This document shows, in pieces, positions 19,859 to 28,282 of a stretch of 38,482 nucleotides of DNA; position 1 is the stretch's first letter; every line of letters starts with the position of its first letter. Location of the stretch: assembly GCA_015064795.1 (NCBI GenBank), contig SVRO01000003.1, positions 1 through 38,482 of the forward strand. Direction: 5' to 3'. A model generated the notes under the pieces. It was not told the origin of the DNA and made no database searches. It worked only from the letters and a program-made list of their open reading frames with translations. Source of the DNA: Oscillospiraceae bacterium. Lineage in GTDB: Bacteria; Bacillota; Clostridia; Oscillospirales; CAG-272. Position numbers and translations under genes: made by a program.

Positions 19859-20776
19859 TTATCGGAGTTCGTTCAAATTATAAGGTGTCGTTTGATAAAC
19901 GAAATAATTCAGCCAGTTGGAGAACAGAAGGTTTGCGTGTGCACGCCAAGTGACGAGGGGAGCCCTCGTGTCATCGTCATTCGGGAAATAGTTAAGCGGC
20001 ACGCCAATAGAAAGTCCCAAATTTTTATCACGCACATATTCTCGGTTCAAGGTTTCGGCATCGTACTCCGAGTGTCCCGTAATAAAGATCTGTCTGCCGT
20101 TTTCGGTAGAAATAGCGTAAAGTCCCGCCTCCTCGGAAGCGGCAAGCACCTTAAGCGCGGAGCAAGCCTTTACGTCTTCGGGGCGAATCGTCGTGTGTCT
20201 GGAGTGCGGAACCATAAAAACGTCGTCGAATCCACGGAACAGAATCGAGCTTTTTCGCACGACCTTGTGCGGAAATACACCAAACATTTTCTTTTCAAGC
20301 GGGTATTTTTGAATGCCGAAATGGTAATAAAGTCCCGCCTGTGCGCCCCAACAAATATGAAGCGTGCTATGAACGTGGCGCTTCGACCACTCCATGATTT
20401 CGCAAAGCTCCTTCCAATATTCCACCTCCTCAAACTCCAGCTTCTCTACGGGTGCCCCCGTAACGATCATGCCGTCAAAGGACTGATCCTTTACGTCGTC
20501 AAAGGTTTTGTAAAAGGTGCGAAGATGCTCCTTAGAAATATTTTTGGATTCATAGCTCTTAGTATGAAGCAATTCCACCTCAACCTGAAGAGCCGTATTT
20601 CCCAGCAAACGCATAAGCTGTGTCTCGGTGTCGATTTTGGTCGGCATCAAATTCACGATGGCAATGCGGAGAGGACGAATATCCTGAGAGACTGCTCGCG
20701 CCTCGTCCATAATGAAAATATTTTCATCGGTCAAGGTTTTATACGCGGGCAACTCGTTTGGTATCTTAATGGGCAT
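19859..20776 (-). CDS. metA: Homoserine O-acyltransferase MetA (predicted acetyl-CoA specific)
   Basis: [23 protein letters not shown]...; [49 protein letters not shown]. Confidence 0.94.
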
Positions 20777-20787
20777 AGTACAACTCC

Positions 20788-22071
20788 TTAATCAATCTGG
20801 TCAAGTGCCTGTTTAATGTCGTCGATCAGATCCTGCGCATTCTCAATGCCGCAGGAAAGCCGAACGAGGTCGGGCGAAACGCCTGCCGCCAAAAGCTCGT
20901 CATCGGTCATCTGGCGGTGCGTAGCACTTGCAGGATGCAAGCAGCAGGAGCGCGCGTCGGCAACGTGCGTTTCGATAGCAATCACGCGAAGCTTCTTCAT
21001 AAAGCTCTCTGCTGCCTTACGTCCACCCTTTACACCGAAGCTTACGACACCGCAAGAACCGTTCGGCAGATATTTTTCGGCAAGAGCGTGATATTTATCG
21101 TTTTTAAGGCCGCAATATCTGACCCAAGAGATTTTGTCACTGCTCTCAAGGAATTCGGCAACCGCCTGCGCGTTTTCGCAATGACGCTTCATACGAACGT
21201 GAAGGCTTTCGAGGCCAAGATTCAAAAGATATGCGTTGAAAGGAGCTTGGATCGAGCCGAAGTCACGCATAAGCTGTGCCGTTGCCTTGGTAATAAACGC
21301 GCCCTCAAGACCGAATCTTTCGGCGTAAACGACGCCGTGATAGCTGTCATCGGGTGTGCAAAGACCTGCAAATTTTTCAGGATACTTCGTCCAATCAAAT
21401 TTTCCCGAGTCCACGATACATCCACCGACGGCCGATCCGTGACCGTCCATGTACTTGGTGGTGGAATGCGTTACAATATCCGCGCCCCACTCAAACGGGC
21501 GGCAATTCACAGGCGTTGCAAAGGTGTTGTCAATGATCAGCGGAACGCCGTGCTTGTGTGCGGCATTCGCAAAGCGCTCAATATCTAAAACGCAGAGTGC
21601 GGGATTGGCAATGGTCTCACCAAACACCGCCTTGGTATTCGGCCTAAAGGCTGCCTCCAGCTCCTCGTCTGTGCAGTCGGGCGACACAAAGGTGAATTCA
21701 ATCCCCATCTTGCGCATGGTTACGGCAAACAGGTTGAAGGTACCGCCGTAAATCGACGAGCTGGACACAATATGGTCGCCACAGGTGGCGATATTGAAGA
21801 TGGCGTAGAAGTTCGCCGCCTGTCCAGACGAGGTCAGCATAGCAGCACATCCGCCCTCAAGCTCTGCAATTTTGGCGGCCACGAGATCGTTGGTCGGATT
21901 CTGAAGGCGAGAGTAGAAATAACCCGATGCCTCCAGATCAAACAGCTTTCCCATATCCTCGCTCGTATCGTATTTAAAGGTCGTGCTCTGCACGATCGGA
22001 ATCTGGCGAGGTTCGCCGTTTCCGGGGGTGTAGCCCCCCTGTACGCAAATAGTTTCCAATCTTTTTTTCAT
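20788..22071 (-). CDS. metY: O-acetylhomoserine aminocarboxypropyltransferase/sulfhydrylase (PLP)
   Basis: [54 protein letters not shown]-lysine motif; start placed at MKKRLE. Confidence 0.92.
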
Positions 22072-22096
22072 GATATATCGTTTCCTTTCTGTTGAA

Positions 22097-22843
22097 TTAT
22101 CGGAATGTTGTAACGCCGTCCGCAAGGAAAGCGTTCGTTCTCATTATGGTTACCCAAAACGTCTCTTCGTCGGTTTGGTCAATTTCACACTCCTTACAAA
22201 GCATATCCAAAAGGAGCGTGGGATTTAAATAATTGTCACTGCTTACGTTCAAAACGGCATTTACCTTGACCGTACCCGAAAGCTCATCGTAACAGGCGTC
22301 AAAGGAATGGATCTGCGGGATCATGTCAAATTCCTTTTCGCCCGATTTGGTGGTTTTGGTGGCCATCCATGAGGGCCTTGCCGCAAGCGCGTTCATCGTT
22401 TTCGCGACTTTCTCGGAAAGTCCTGCGTAAGAAATCTCCATTTCATAACCTGACCAAACGTAATCCGAAAATTTGGTTTCGGGAATATAAACATCGAGAA
22501 TACGCATCTCCTCTGTCACCTCACGGTTAAGAAGCGTTTTGATTTCCTCGCATGAGATCTCTCGCTCAATGCGGATGTCCAGCATCTCGCATTCGCTCTG
22601 TGTACCGATGGAAAGCGGCGTGGAAAAGACCAGCTTAATATGCGGGTTAAATCCTTTGGTATACCAAACGGGGATTCCCGCACGCGAAAGAATGCGATGC
22701 ATCGTTCGCTGAAGATCCAAATGGGAAATATACTGCAGATCTCCCACCTTGCGAAAACGAATACGCACGTTGATCGGCTCGTCAAGAAGTGGACGGTCTT
22801 TTTTGGTATAACAGGCTTTCAGCTCTTTGCTTTCGGACAACAC
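22097..22843 (-). CDS. TIGR03936 / DUF2344 family radical-SAM-associated protein
   Basis: NVRIRFRKVGDLQYISHLDLQRTMHRILSRAGIPVWYTKGFNPHIKLVFSTPLSIGTQSECEMLDI. Confidence 0.9.
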   Translation of the reverse strand: MLSESKELKACYTKKDRPLLDEPINVRIRFRKVGDLQYISHLDLQRTMHRILSRAGIPVWYTKGFNPHIKLVFSTPLSIGTQSECEMLDIRIEREISCEEIKTLLNREVTEEMRILDVYIPETKFSDYVWSGYEMEISYAGLSEKVAKTMNALAARPSWMATKTTKSGEKEFDMIPQIHSFDACYDELSGTVKVNAVLNVSSDNYLNPTLLLDMLCKECEIDQTDEETFWVTIMRTNAFLADGVTTFR

Positions 22844-24687
22844 GACCTCTCACCTCCCAGCTTATTAGCACCACAACCGCTGCACTGCTCGCGGCAATTC
22901 GGTGTGGTTCGTTCTTCATATGCCTTTTCGCTTTCGCGCAAAAAGAAGCTCTTTTCTACCCCGCAATCAATGATATCCCAAGGAAGCACCTCGTCCTTAC
23001 CAAATGTGCGGTTGGCGTAAAAGGCAGGATCAATGCCTGCTTTTTCAAAAACAGACAGCCATTTGTCATAATCGAAATATTCGTCCCATGCGTCAAAAAC
23101 AAAACCTTCGTCGGCCGCGATCGCAAGTGCCTTGGCAAGCTTACGGTCGCCTCTGGCAAGGACCGCCTCCACGCGCGACGTGCCGGGATCGTGGAAGAGA
23201 TAGCGAATTTTACGGTCATTGATCCTATCTCCGATCAATTCCTGCTTCCTTACAAATTCTTCTGCGCTATCCTGCGCCTCCCACTGAAAAGGCGTGAAGG
23301 GCTTCGGAACGAAGCAGGCTACGCTGATGGTCACCTGCGGTGCGCGCGCCTTGTTGCGCTTTGGATTTTTATAAAACTCGTCAAGCACCTTCTTGGCCAG
23401 TGCTACGATTCCTTCAAGATCCTCGTCGGTTTCGGTAGGCAGACCCATCATGAAATACAGCTTGACCTGCGTTTTTCCCGACTCAAACGCCACGTTTACC
23501 GCACGCAGCAAATCCTCCTCAAAGACGTTTTTGTTGATCACGTCACGAAGCCGTTGCGTACCCGCCTCGGGCGCGAAGGTCAGCGACGCACTTCGCACGG
23601 ACGCCACCTTGTCCATCAGCTCCTTGGTAAAGCTATCCACACGAAGCGACGGCAAGGAAAGGCTGACCATATGTTCATCCGTCCAGGAAAGAAGTGTGTC
23701 GGTAAGCTCGGGGAGTCTGGAGTAGTCACTGATCGAAAGCGAGGAAAGCGAGATTTCGTCATAACCCGTAGACTCAAACAAGCATTTGGCCTGACGGTTT
23801 AAGACCTCGGGGCTTTTTTCTCTTACCGGGCGGTATACCATACCCGCCTGGCAGAATCGGCACCCGCGGATACAGCCTCGGTAAACCTCAAGCATAATGC
23901 GGTCGTGTACCGTTTCAATGTAAGGCATAACTACCTTTTCCGGGAAATACGACGCATCCAAATCTTTCATGATACGCTTGGTGATTTTGGCGGGAATGTC
24001 GTCATAAACGGGGCGGTATTCCTTCACTGTGCCGTCCTCGTTGTAGGATACATCATAAAAGGACGGAACGTAAAGTCCACCGATCGTACGCGCCGCCTCA
24101 TGAAGAAATTCGCGCTTGGAATAGTGTCCGCTTTCCTTCATTTTAATGTAGAGCTTGGTGAACTCCACGAGCATATCCTCGCCCTCTCCGATCGAGAAGC
24201 AGTCGAAGAAATCGGCCACGGGCTCGGCGTTATACGCACACGGGCCGCCACCGATAATGATCGGGAGCTCGTCATCTCGATCCTTGGCGTAAAGCGGAAT
24301 GTTGGCAAGCTTGAGCATAGCCAGCACATTGGTGTAGGACATTTCATACTGAAGTGTAAAACCGATGATGTCAAAATCGGTAAGCTTGTCCTTGCTCTCG
24401 TGTGCGGTCAGCGGAAGTCCGTGCTTCTGCATTTTTTCCATCATATCAGTCCAGGGCATGTAAGCACGCTCACACCAAATGTCCTCTTCCTTATTCAGCG
24501 CGCCGTACAAAATACGAACGCCGAGGTTGGACATTCCGATCTCATACGAGTCGGGAAAGCAAAAGGCCCATCTTGCCTTGATCTTGCTTTTATCCTTTAG
24601 GATCTGATTATATTCTCCGCCCGAATAGCGACCGGGCTTGGAGACTGATTTTAAAATTGTACTTCTGTTTTTCATGTTATTACTCAT
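22819..24687 (-). CDS. TIGR03960 family B12-binding-domain/radical SAM protein
   Basis: KPGRYSGGEYNQILKDKSKIKARWAFCFPDSYEIGMSNLGVRILY; YRGCIRGCRFCQAGMVYRPVREKSP (CxxxCxxC); start overlaps the upstream stop as ATGA. Confidence 0.93.
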   Translation of the reverse strand: MSNNMKNRSTILKSVSKPGRYSGGEYNQILKDKSKIKARWAFCFPDSYEIGMSNLGVRILYGALNKEEDIWCERAYMPWTDMMEKMQKHGLPLTAHESKDKLTDFDIIGFTLQYEMSYTNVLAMLKLANIPLYAKDRDDELPIIIGGGPCAYNAEPVADFFDCFSIGEGEDMLVEFTKLYIKMKESGHYSKREFLHEAARTIGGLYVPSFYDVSYNEDGTVKEYRPVYDDIPAKITKRIMKDLDASYFPEKVVMPYIETVHDRIMLEVYRGCIRGCRFCQAGMVYRPVREKSPEVLNRQAKCLFESTGYDEISLSSLSISDYSRLPELTDTLLSWTDEHMVSLSLPSLRVDSFTKELMDKVASVRSASLTFAPEAGTQRLRDVINKNVFEEDLLRAVNVAFESGKTQVKLYFMMGLPTETDEDLEGIVALAKKVLDEFYKNPKRNKARAPQVTISVACFVPKPFTPFQWEAQDSAEEFVRKQELIGDRINDRKIRYLFHDPGTSRVEAVLARGDRKLAKALAIAADEGFVFDAWDEYFDYDKWLSVFEKAGIDPAFYANRTFGKDEVLPWDIIDCGVEKSFFLRESEKAYEERTTPNCREQCSGCGANKLGGERSCCPKAKS

Positions 24688-27413
24688 TTCAGTTTGGATT
24701 TCGTGTATATCAGCGAAGGCACTAACCAAAGCACCTGATAGATCACAATATACAAGGAAGGAACATACGCATACAGTTTTCCCACCATAACGAACGCGGA
24801 TAAAATTACGCCCAGCAAGAGCGACAAAAGGCGGAAGCATCTCTGCTTGCTATAAATACGCTTGATGTTAAAGCATTGCTCCAGGATCTTGAAGATCATA
24901 TGCGAATTCTTCGAGGTGACGATTCCGCTATCCGAATGCTTTCCGATGGGAATAAGCTCGTTAGGTGTAGGACGTATGACCTTGATGGACACATTCTTAT
25001 CGTTTCGAAGTGCTGCAATCATTTTCTCGTTCACGTTGGGATCCAGGGTTCGAATACCAACGCGAACACCGTTTCTCAACATCTCTGCGGCAAATTTTTC
25101 AAAACGCTGGGTAACCGTATACTGCACGTAAAGCTTCGCACAAAGCTCACCACCAATTGCCAAATACAGAATACAGATCTGTCCGCTTTCGATTTTTTTC
25201 TCGTCGTCAGTGTTACGCTTTGGGAAATATCCATGACTTCGCATAAAAGCAAGATTGCCGATGTAAACCGTTTGATCCTCAACAGTTGCTTTCACGCCAC
25301 CAACCGAAATATCGGTGATGCGTACGTTTTCTTTTTTCTCAATCTCCTTGGCCGAATTATCAAAAACGTTGCAAAGCGGTGCGCCGATAACGGTAAAGAC
25401 CGAAAGTGCATAAGAAAGCAACGAATAAAAGTCCATATCGTTATAAGAACGAACGCCAACCACGCGCGCACCGTGTTTTCCAAACATTTCCGAGTCCTCA
25501 AGGTAGATCGTATCGGTGTCGTTGTACTCCTCAGATACGGCGTCGCCGATCACCGCACTGTCAAGCTTGGAAAGTCCCTTCGTCAAGTGGAAGAAAGGAT
25601 ATATGTTGGCAATCAGAAATTGCATCGGCACGCAAATAAACATGGAAAAGGCAAACGACGCAAAGAAGGTGGAAATATCGTCGGTCAAAAACAAGGAAAA
25701 CAAGGAAACCACAAGAGCACCGAGAGTCGAAAAAGCAAGCTCATGGAAATATTCCGAAAGCTGAAGGGATCGGCGACCTGAGCGCGTGAAGAAGTTGCCC
25801 ACGAAAGTAACCTTCTCCACGAAGAATTCCTGCCCAAACGAAAAAACGTTGGATTCGTTTTGTGCCTTTTCTTCCAATCGTTCAAGTGAAAGCTTTGGTT
25901 TGCGATCCGAAACGACATCAAAGGCCAACCTTTCGCGCGTAAGACGCATACCATCGTCCGCAATACCAAACAAGAGGAAGATCGCCATTGCAAAATTGTA
26001 AACAGACATTCCGCTCTCTCGGAAAAAGAGCAAAACAATAAGATTATACGTAAAATTCAGCACAGAAAGACAAGCAATTGGTCCAAAAGGATCCCCCTGT
26101 AATACCATACACGAACGAAGTCCAATTCCTATCCTTTTGCGCGAAATAGCAATGAGCAATGCAGATAAGAGCAGTGCCGTAAAGTAATAAACCGACGGCT
26201 GATTCAGCCAATTTGAAAGATATGGCAGTCTTATGGCCGTCATGGGTAGATTTTCAAGGAACAGGATCAAAATACTCAAAAAAAATGTAGCGATCAAACG
26301 GTCACGAATCCTTCGGTTCTCGGAGGCATATCGCTTTTTTATAGAATCGATCTGTTTTGCATTGCGAAACTCCTCGCCGTCGTATCCGTACGTACGCTCA
26401 CCGGTGAATTCCTCAAAGAATGGGTCGTAAAATCCGTTTCTGGCAGAGCGAACGCGTGCATACCCCACCGAGCTTTCAAGCGCTTCCTTGCTACCGAGGG
26501 CTAACGCGAGATTGATATCAATATCATCAAAGTCCGGTGCGTCGATCGGCTCTTCTTCACGCAGTTTGTTTTCGGTTTTCGTTTTGCCCAAGCCAAAAAA
26601 ACGATTTGCCTCGTCATCCTCTAAATACAGGTCTTTATATTCGTCAAGAGGCTCGTAGCAAATTTTTTCCTCGCGTGCATCCAAAAGAATCAGCATGTCC
26701 TCTGCTTTCGTTTTCTCCTGTGAAAAAGAAACGCTCTCGTCCTTTGGTACATTCGCTTCGCAAGAAACAGCATTATCCAAAAGAATGTCCGCGTTGTCGG
26801 CAAGAGATTCCTTGTCCAATAGCCCAATGTCTTCTAACAACAGTGGCTCGCATTCGTCCGCAGCAAGATTTTCTTCGGGCTCAATTGCTTCTGACAGCTT
26901 GTCTACAGGGTCTTGGACAACCGGCTCGTTATCCGCATCACTTAGCATTTCCGAATTGTCGGTATCCACTTCCGAATGAAGCTTCTCCACCTTTTTTGGT
27001 AAGTTCCAAATCTCATCTGCGGAAACCGAATCGGAAACAAGGCTTTCCACGCGCTCGCGAAGCTTTTCTTCAAGCTCGGGATCTTCAACCTCCGCTTCGG
27101 GCTCATCTACAGCCAAAGCCTCCTCGACATCAAGAAAAATAACCGTTTCATCTTCCGCGACAACGGGCGTTCCCGCGGTATCCTCACCCGTTTCTACGGC
27201 AAACTCATACCCTTCGATGTTGTATTCCGAAGGTTCACAAGACTCGGCTTCCTTTTTGGGGGCACCGATATTTTTTTTCAAAAGATCAAGAAGCTCCTCG
27301 GGTGTTTCACCGCTCGGCTTCACCGAATCCACACCGGGAGCAGACTTCTTTTCCACCTTTTGCTGAAGGCGTGCAAGAAGCTCGGATATTTCGTTATTCG
27401 GCTTATTTTCCAT
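24684..27413 (-). CDS. Large membrane protein resembling a catalytically degenerate P1B-type ATPase, with acidic N-terminal extension
   Basis: About 8 hydrophobic segments arranged 4-2-2; ICVPMQFLIANIYPFFHLTKGLS..DTDTIYLEDSEMF in place of CPC...DTVVFDKTGT; N-domain-like QTVYIGNLAFMRSHG; VRVGIRTLDPN in place of TGDN. Confidence 0.7.
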   Translation of the reverse strand: MENKPNNEISELLARLQQKVEKKSAPGVDSVKPSGETPEELLDLLKKNIGAPKKEAESCEPSEYNIEGYEFAVETGEDTAGTPVVAEDETVIFLDVEEALAVDEPEAEVEDPELEEKLRERVESLVSDSVSADEIWNLPKKVEKLHSEVDTDNSEMLSDADNEPVVQDPVDKLSEAIEPEENLAADECEPLLLEDIGLLDKESLADNADILLDNAVSCEANVPKDESVSFSQEKTKAEDMLILLDAREEKICYEPLDEYKDLYLEDDEANRFFGLGKTKTENKLREEEPIDAPDFDDIDINLALALGSKEALESSVGYARVRSARNGFYDPFFEEFTGERTYGYDGEEFRNAKQIDSIKKRYASENRRIRDRLIATFFLSILILFLENLPMTAIRLPYLSNWLNQPSVYYFTALLLSALLIAISRKRIGIGLRSCMVLQGDPFGPIACLSVLNFTYNLIVLLFFRESGMSVYNFAMAIFLLFGIADDGMRLTRERLAFDVVSDRKPKLSLERLEEKAQNESNVFSFGQEFFVEKVTFVGNFFTRSGRRSLQLSEYFHELAFSTLGALVVSLFSLFLTDDISTFFASFAFSMFICVPMQFLIANIYPFFHLTKGLSKLDSAVIGDAVSEEYNDTDTIYLEDSEMFGKHGARVVGVRSYNDMDFYSLLSYALSVFTVIGAPLCNVFDNSAKEIEKKENVRITDISVGGVKATVEDQTVYIGNLAFMRSHGYFPKRNTDDEKKIESGQICILYLAIGGELCAKLYVQYTVTQRFEKFAAEMLRNGVRVGIRTLDPNVNEKMIAALRNDKNVSIKVIRPTPNELIPIGKHSDSGIVTSKNSHMIFKILEQCFNIKRIYSKQRCFRLLSLLLGVILSAFVMVGKLYAYVPSLYIVIYQVLWLVPSLIYTKSKLK

Positions 27414-27436: not shown

Positions 27437-28282
27437 TTAGGCTTTCTTGTGATGCTGCTTGGACGCCTCCGCCAAAATGACCGACGCCGCGGTCGACACG
27501 TTAAAAGAGTTCACCTTTCCATACATGGGAATGGAAACCACAAAATCACTTCTCTCAAGAACCAGCTTGGAAACACCGTCGCCTTCGCTTCCAAACACGA
27601 TAACGGCACCACCCGAAAAGTCGGTATCGTAATAGTTTTGACCTCCCGCCTCAGCGGCGTATACCCAAAGTCCCTGCTTTTTCAAGGACTCCAGCGTAGA
27701 AACGATATTGGATACCTTGGCGATGGCCAAATGCTCGATCGCACCGGCAGACGCCTTGCTAACGAGTGGCGTAAGACCGCTTGCACGTCTCTTGGGAAGA
27801 ATGAGCCCGTGCGCCCCCACGCCCTCGGCACAACGGATCAACGCCCCGAGGTTATAAGGGTCCGTAATGCCGTCCGAAACGACGATCAACGGCTTTTCCC
27901 CACGTTCCTCGGCAATTTTCAAAATATCCTCAACCGACGAATATTCCTTTTCGGCCGCCATAGCAACGATGCCCTGATGTGGCGCAAAACCCGAAACCGA
28001 ATCCAATTTCGCCTTTTCTACCTCAAGGATCGGAATTCCCATCCTGCGAGCCTCAGCCACAAGGACGATGATCGAGCCCTCAAGCTCTCCCTTGCGAATC
28101 CAGATTTTATCAATCGAGCGTCCCGAACGCAACAGCTCACGAACGGCATTGCGGCCAATTACAAGCCCCGAGCTTTCTTCTTCCTCGCGCGGTTCACGGG
28201 AAACCGTTTTCTCGTCTCCGTTTCGCCAATCGCTCTTTCCTCGATACGATTTTTGATGACGTTCCGTTTTGTTATATGCCAT
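27437..28282 (-). CDS. rlmB: 23S rRNA (guanosine(2251)-2'-O)-methyltransferase RlmB (SpoU family)
   Basis: VIGRNAVRELLRSGRSIDKIWI; DGITDPYNLGALIRCAEGVGAHGLILPKRRA; VIVFGSEGDGVSKLVLERSDFVVSIPMYGKVNSFNVSTAASVIL. Confidence 0.93.
   Translation of the reverse strand: MAYNKTERHQKSYRGKSDWRNGDEKTVSREPREEEESSGLVIGRNAVRELLRSGRSIDKIWIRKGELEGSIIVLVAEARRMGIPILEVEKAKLDSVSGFAPHQGIVAMAAEKEYSSVEDILKIAEERGEKPLIVVSDGITDPYNLGALIRCAEGVGAHGLILPKRRASGLTPLVSKASAGAIEHLAIAKVSNIVSTLESLKKQGLWVYAAEAGGQNYYDTDFSGGAVIVFGSEGDGVSKLVLERSDFVVSIPMYGKVNSFNVSTAASVILAEASKQHHKKA

Follow-up and report, generated by a model that had tools for sequence, protein, structure and literature searches.

A pseudo-P1B-ATPase gene next to rlmB, kept across a bacterial order and probably reused as a membrane receptor or scaffold

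The stretch of contig SVRO01000003.1 analyzed here (38,482 nt, referred to as the window; all coordinates are positions within it) carries a gene for a degenerate relative of the P1B heavy-metal ATPases, which we call the pseudo-P1B-ATPase. The gene and all features described with it lie on the minus strand. Its open frame of 909 codons (24684..27413; 909 aa) agrees with the original prediction, made from the letters alone, of an intact frame of about 910 codons. The frame starts with an ATG at 27413 behind GGAGAAAGATT, which holds a GGAG sequence, and ends with a TGA stop at 24684-24686 that shares bases with the following gene's ATG (AAATGAGT). This overlap fits the predicted translational coupling to the downstream gene (22819..24687), which matches TIGR03960, a B12-binding radical S-adenosylmethionine (SAM) family. 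Directly upstream, ending 23 bases before the pseudo-ATPase, is rlmB (27437..28282; TIGR00186 above cut-off), which encodes the 23S rRNA (G2251-2'-O)-methyltransferase. The pseudo-ATPase itself consists of an acidic, mostly disordered N-terminal extension (residues 1-340; 26394..27413) and a P1B-ATPase-like core with eight predicted membrane helices (residues 341-909; 24687..26393).

The core is a full-length homologue of P1B heavy-metal ATPases over its last ~570 residues, as judged by profile search, hhalign, AlphaFold2 modeling and Foldseek. A profile built from a 46-sequence alignment of this region found LpCopA at E=1e-32, with CopA, CopB, HMA4, ZntA and ATP7B behind it; the best-ranked chains were of P1B type. 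An hhalign comparison with intact P1B ATPases from the order gave a probability of 99.9% (E=1e-33, 536 columns). AlphaFold2, run on the core alignment, produced a model with a predicted local distance difference test (pLDDT) score of 88.1 and a predicted template modeling (pTM) score of 0.85, in which helices and strands follow the P1B order; the eight membrane helices bear out the topology that had been proposed. When this fold was compared with the PDB by Foldseek, the first matches were the P1B pumps 3rfu, 4bbj, ATP7B and AfCopA (E 2.5e-15, probability 1.00), with KdpB and other P-type ATPases further down the list at lower similarity. The whole-chain TM-scores of the P1B matches are moderate (0.42-0.60), as expected if the domains differ in placement and the actuator is reduced. 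In a viral structure library, only two P-type ATPase matches were obtained, at low TM-score. Similarity to P-type ATPases, chosen beforehand as one test of the prediction, is therefore strong by both profile and structure.

At the sequence level, the homology is made secure only by profiles and not by single sequences. With the window protein as the query, a single-sequence search left the similarity to LpCopA below significance (E=0.098), a Pfam search returned nothing above cut-off, and an NCBIfam search reached E about 0.005 for CopA and TIGR01525, well short of cut-off. Likewise, no Pfam family scored convincingly in a scan of 46 relatives (best E 0.0077). Individually, 30 of these 46 match TIGR01525, the best at 1.4e-12 (E-values, not set against curated cut-offs). 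An intact P1B ATPase is also present in the window's own genome. In a midpoint-rooted tree, all family members group together in a single clade, separate from the order's intact P-type ATPases. The family thus looks like one old lineage, on a branch too long to assign the P1B subgroup of origin.

We then consider the motifs on which pumping depends, counted over 137 distinct relatives. At their proper places, DKTG, TGE, TGDN and GDGxND occur in none of the 137; all DKTG, TGD and TGE strings found sit outside the motif positions, and so the search for orthologues with intact motifs yielded none. For comparison, 44 intact P-type ATPases of the order all carry DKTGT and TGE, and nearly all carry GDGxND. 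In the window protein, by profile and alignments, LEDSEMF (residues 638-644; 25482..25502) stands at the DKTGTLT position. Here, E639 does align with the phosphorylated Asp, as the original prediction held; the substitution is not general, however, since the family column reads D in 68, E in 21, N in 10, A and S in 9 each, and other residues in the remainder. The reported loss of KTGT holds throughout: the Lys column is Asp in 128/137 (D640 in the window protein), and x-[DE]-V-F-P stands where TGTLT would be. In M4, the family alignment sets CVPM (residues 594-597; 25623..25634) at the position of CPC, matching the V-P-M reading; only the Pro is kept (128/137), and the Cys residues are lost. 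The E-HP motif of the ATP-binding N domain is replaced by G-G-P-L, which appears as GAPL in the window protein (residues 677-680; 25374..25385; profile and alignment).

Most of the actuator segment that carries TGE has disappeared. The AlphaFold2 model and a joint alignment leave a remnant of ~46 residues (503-548; 25770..25907) with no TGE at its place, as had been predicted. TLDPNV (residues 789-794; 25032..25049) occupies the TGDN position, where relatives read T-x-D-P-N-I. The motif is degenerate as proposed. Two residues of TGD, the T and the D, are still recognizable in T-x-D-P-N, the Asp (D791) in 136/137 and T or S at position 789 in 124/137. All the motif strings quoted in the prediction are present in the protein, but one assignment failed: KHSDSGIVTSKNSHMI had been equated with the GDGxNDxP hinge, and that block is deleted, being a gap in all 18 family members of the joint alignment and, by pattern, missing from 146 proteins. 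By our reading of the alignments, DSGIV seems instead to correspond to ADVGIAMG, a later segment. Still present in the family are all eight membrane helices as well as an N and a P domain.

Six columns exceed 90% identity: P596, G623, D640, G719, Y765 and D791. The most constant of them are D791 (99%) and Y765 (135/137), the latter within QYTV (residues 764-767; 25113..25124). We take from established P-type ATPase structure that D640 lies beside the former DKTGT Asp, Y765 at the N/P hinge position and D791-P-N at TGD. On these aligned positions, D640, Y765 and D791 are predicted to cluster around the former phosphorylation pocket, and the metal path is predicted to be lost. The membrane segments rank with the most variable regions of the protein, at a mean entropy of 2.6-2.8 bits (2.2 in the first P-domain segment), and conserved polar or charged residues are almost absent from them; what is conserved there is the M4 proline (93%), P606 (89%) and a Trp in M6 (87%).

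The gene is kept under selection in nearly all genomes of one order of gut Clostridia, probably Oscillospirales. An initial search recovered a homologue in 56 of 58 related genomes, and a profile search found the gene in 192 of 197 genomes of the order, one copy each. In a sample of the class, all 12 genomes of the order gave full-length matches of at least 222 bits; no full-length match was obtained in 231 genomes of other orders (best at most 116 bits), and the matches listed from those orders span just the region that an ordinary P-type ATPase would be expected to match. Public records of the family are metagenome-assembled genomes, many from animal guts. Across 14 close pairs, the ratio of nonsynonymous to synonymous substitutions (dN/dS), from simple Nei-Gojobori counts in which some synonymous distances are near saturation, is 0.025-0.084 for the core and 0.11-0.29 for the N-terminal tail. 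An intact frame, an order-wide single copy and a low dN/dS together indicate a protein that is kept and repurposed, as had been predicted. The degenerate motifs are what one would expect of a decaying pseudogene or an assembly artefact, but long open frames with conserved ends in nearly 200 genomes and a dN/dS far below 1 refute this explanation, to which we give practically no credence.

Two of the five genomes of the order that do not carry the gene (G322 and G375) are species of one genus, with completeness of 95-97%. This suggests a real loss there, and the genus provides a natural comparison. Separately, copies L038 (genome G055) and G022:C4 showed one in-frame TGA in some searches, with the frame of L038 split, which could reflect sequencing error, decay or read-through at the frame edge. 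In genome G012, a single-sequence search gave two strong copies (C112:2505-4142 and C92:48150-49751; E 1.6e-51 and 1.1e-46), which may represent a strain mixture or a true duplication.

The N-terminal extension is acidic, as predicted: the first 340 residues of the window protein contain 94 D/E vs 34 K/R. Across the family, 123 of the 133 tails are acidic, with medians of 26% for D/E and 300 for length. In the full-length AlphaFold2 model the tail is largely disordered, with pLDDT below 50 over most of residues 24-291. Three elements recur in the window's family, namely SAxELLxxLK at the N-terminus, DxDIxxLxxKYL and DETDxNLMIAFGMxDELxxTVG. The first reads NEISELLARLQ in the window protein (residues 7-17; 27363..27395) and is modeled within a helix (7-23). 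The last sits ~43 residues before the core and is modeled as three short helices; in the window protein, the conserved helical element before the core is FDDIDINLALALGSKEALESSVGYARV (residues 295-321; 26451..26531), in a region of modeled helices (297-337) with pLDDT ~65-79. Its LM.AFG string occurs in 38/132 tails, vs 0.02 in shuffled tails. As a candidate motif common to other proteins this element was rejected, its profile having clearly found only the same gene (38 genomes). A resemblance to UBA/TS-N domains amounts to one Pfam match at E=0.18, and in a comparison with EF-Ts the profile retained only one sequence and aligned nothing.

As for gene order, among 127 loci with enough flank, 122 have rlmB directly upstream on the same strand, at a median gap of 28 bases. 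In four of the five exceptions, a same-strand rlmB is nearby, and the frame is split or a mechanical choice of start overlaps rlmB. The TIGR03960 gene lies downstream in 68 of 132 loci, and no neighbor besides rlmB recurs in more than a few of 20 mostly order-level loci.

We propose that this protein is probably a non-pumping pseudo-P1B-ATPase that has been reused as a membrane receptor or scaffold. Its ancestor would have been a heavy-metal pump. Because the key residues are missing, the descendant would no longer phosphorylate itself, bind metal at CPC or pump. The conserved P-domain columns, set against the variable membrane segments, suggest a P domain remodeled as a binding site: D640, Y765 and D791-P-N would form a putative pocket for a ligand or partner at the place of the old phosphorylation site, and the short elements of the acidic tail may reach further partners. 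Several points weigh against this proposal. The putative site follows from conservation and from aligned positions in P-type ATPases. The catalytic column is still Asp in half of the family, which may point to a residual phosphate or metal role. In addition, the tail elements, clear in the window's family, are faint or missing in many of the order's other families.

The pairing with rlmB is the sole lead to a ligand or partner, and a role touching the ribosome or RlmB is speculative. One version would have the protein act with RlmB or in ribosome assembly, by recruiting either the enzyme or the 50S subunit to the membrane, or by sensing translation. Since this would be one form of the scaffold proposal, the confidences in the two overlap, and we consider it rather unlikely: the constancy and the short gap of the rlmB neighbor, together with the scarcity of any other shared neighbor, speak for it, yet gene pairs can persist through shared expression or translational coupling alone, and RlmB elsewhere works without such a partner. 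More specific still, and improbable in our estimate, is an order-wide arrangement in which the former pocket would bind a ligand or partner while the tail would couple the receptor to the maturation of ribosomes, or to translation, at the membrane. The retained membrane helices invite a different explanation, that the protein is still a transporter, a P1B-derived channel, scramblase or facilitator that works independently of ATP. Retention of all eight helices in order, with the M4 proline, P606 and the M6 Trp conserved, is consistent with this; the variability of the membrane segments, their near lack of conserved polar or charged residues and the lost CPC cysteines make it unlikely. The conservation of D640, D791 and T789 at or beside the old active site could also be that of an active haloacid dehalogenase (HAD)-type enzyme with a new mechanism, a phosphatase or phosphotransferase in which D791 would work with a nucleophile supplied by either D640 or the acidic residue 639. 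However, the motif-IV block GDGxND, which bears the Mg2+ site, is deleted, no conserved Lys replaces that of motif III, and the old nucleophile column varies freely, so we hold this to be very unlikely.

Kinases and other enzyme families have well-known pseudoenzyme members. With the P1B ATPases (LpCopA 3rfu, AfCopA, ZntA; TIGR01525), the present family shares the eight-helix order, the N and P domains and a colinear profile and fold; unlike them, it has none of DKTGT, TGE, TGDN, GDGxND, CPC and E-HP, has lost most of the actuator and the GDGxND block, and carries a long acidic N-terminal tail. KdpB and the other P-type ATPases are likewise active pumps with motifs intact. Of the known cases that we found, Plasmodium GC-beta comes closest: it has a degenerate P4-ATPase domain, and its cyclase domain makes cyclic GMP independently of that domain (PMC6592433). 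The degenerate domain is eukaryotic, of P4 type and fused to a guanylate cyclase, whereas the present family is bacterial, belongs to the P1B type and has no enzyme fused to it. Neither "inactive" nor "degenerate" occurs in a review of open questions on P-type ATPases, which has "pseudo" only within a species name (PMC10654040). In the open-access literature we found no description of a stand-alone, order-wide pseudo-P-type ATPase, which is not proof of novelty, and in Pfam and NCBIfam no model describing such a pseudo-P1B-ATPase family. A near-universal single-copy gene of a major group of gut bacteria is thus nameless in both collections. The family provides a test case for what a P-type ATPase retains after losing its pumping function, and the steady presence of rlmB beside it offers a concrete first hypothesis on function.

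Two further observations concern the genes beyond the pseudo-ATPase. At 22097-24687, the TIGR03960 gene is followed by its partner TIGR03936, a radical SAM pair of unknown function. At 19859-22125, a MetA homoserine O-acetyltransferase gene lies beside an O-acetylhomoserine sulfhydrylase gene, an ordinary methionine gene pair.
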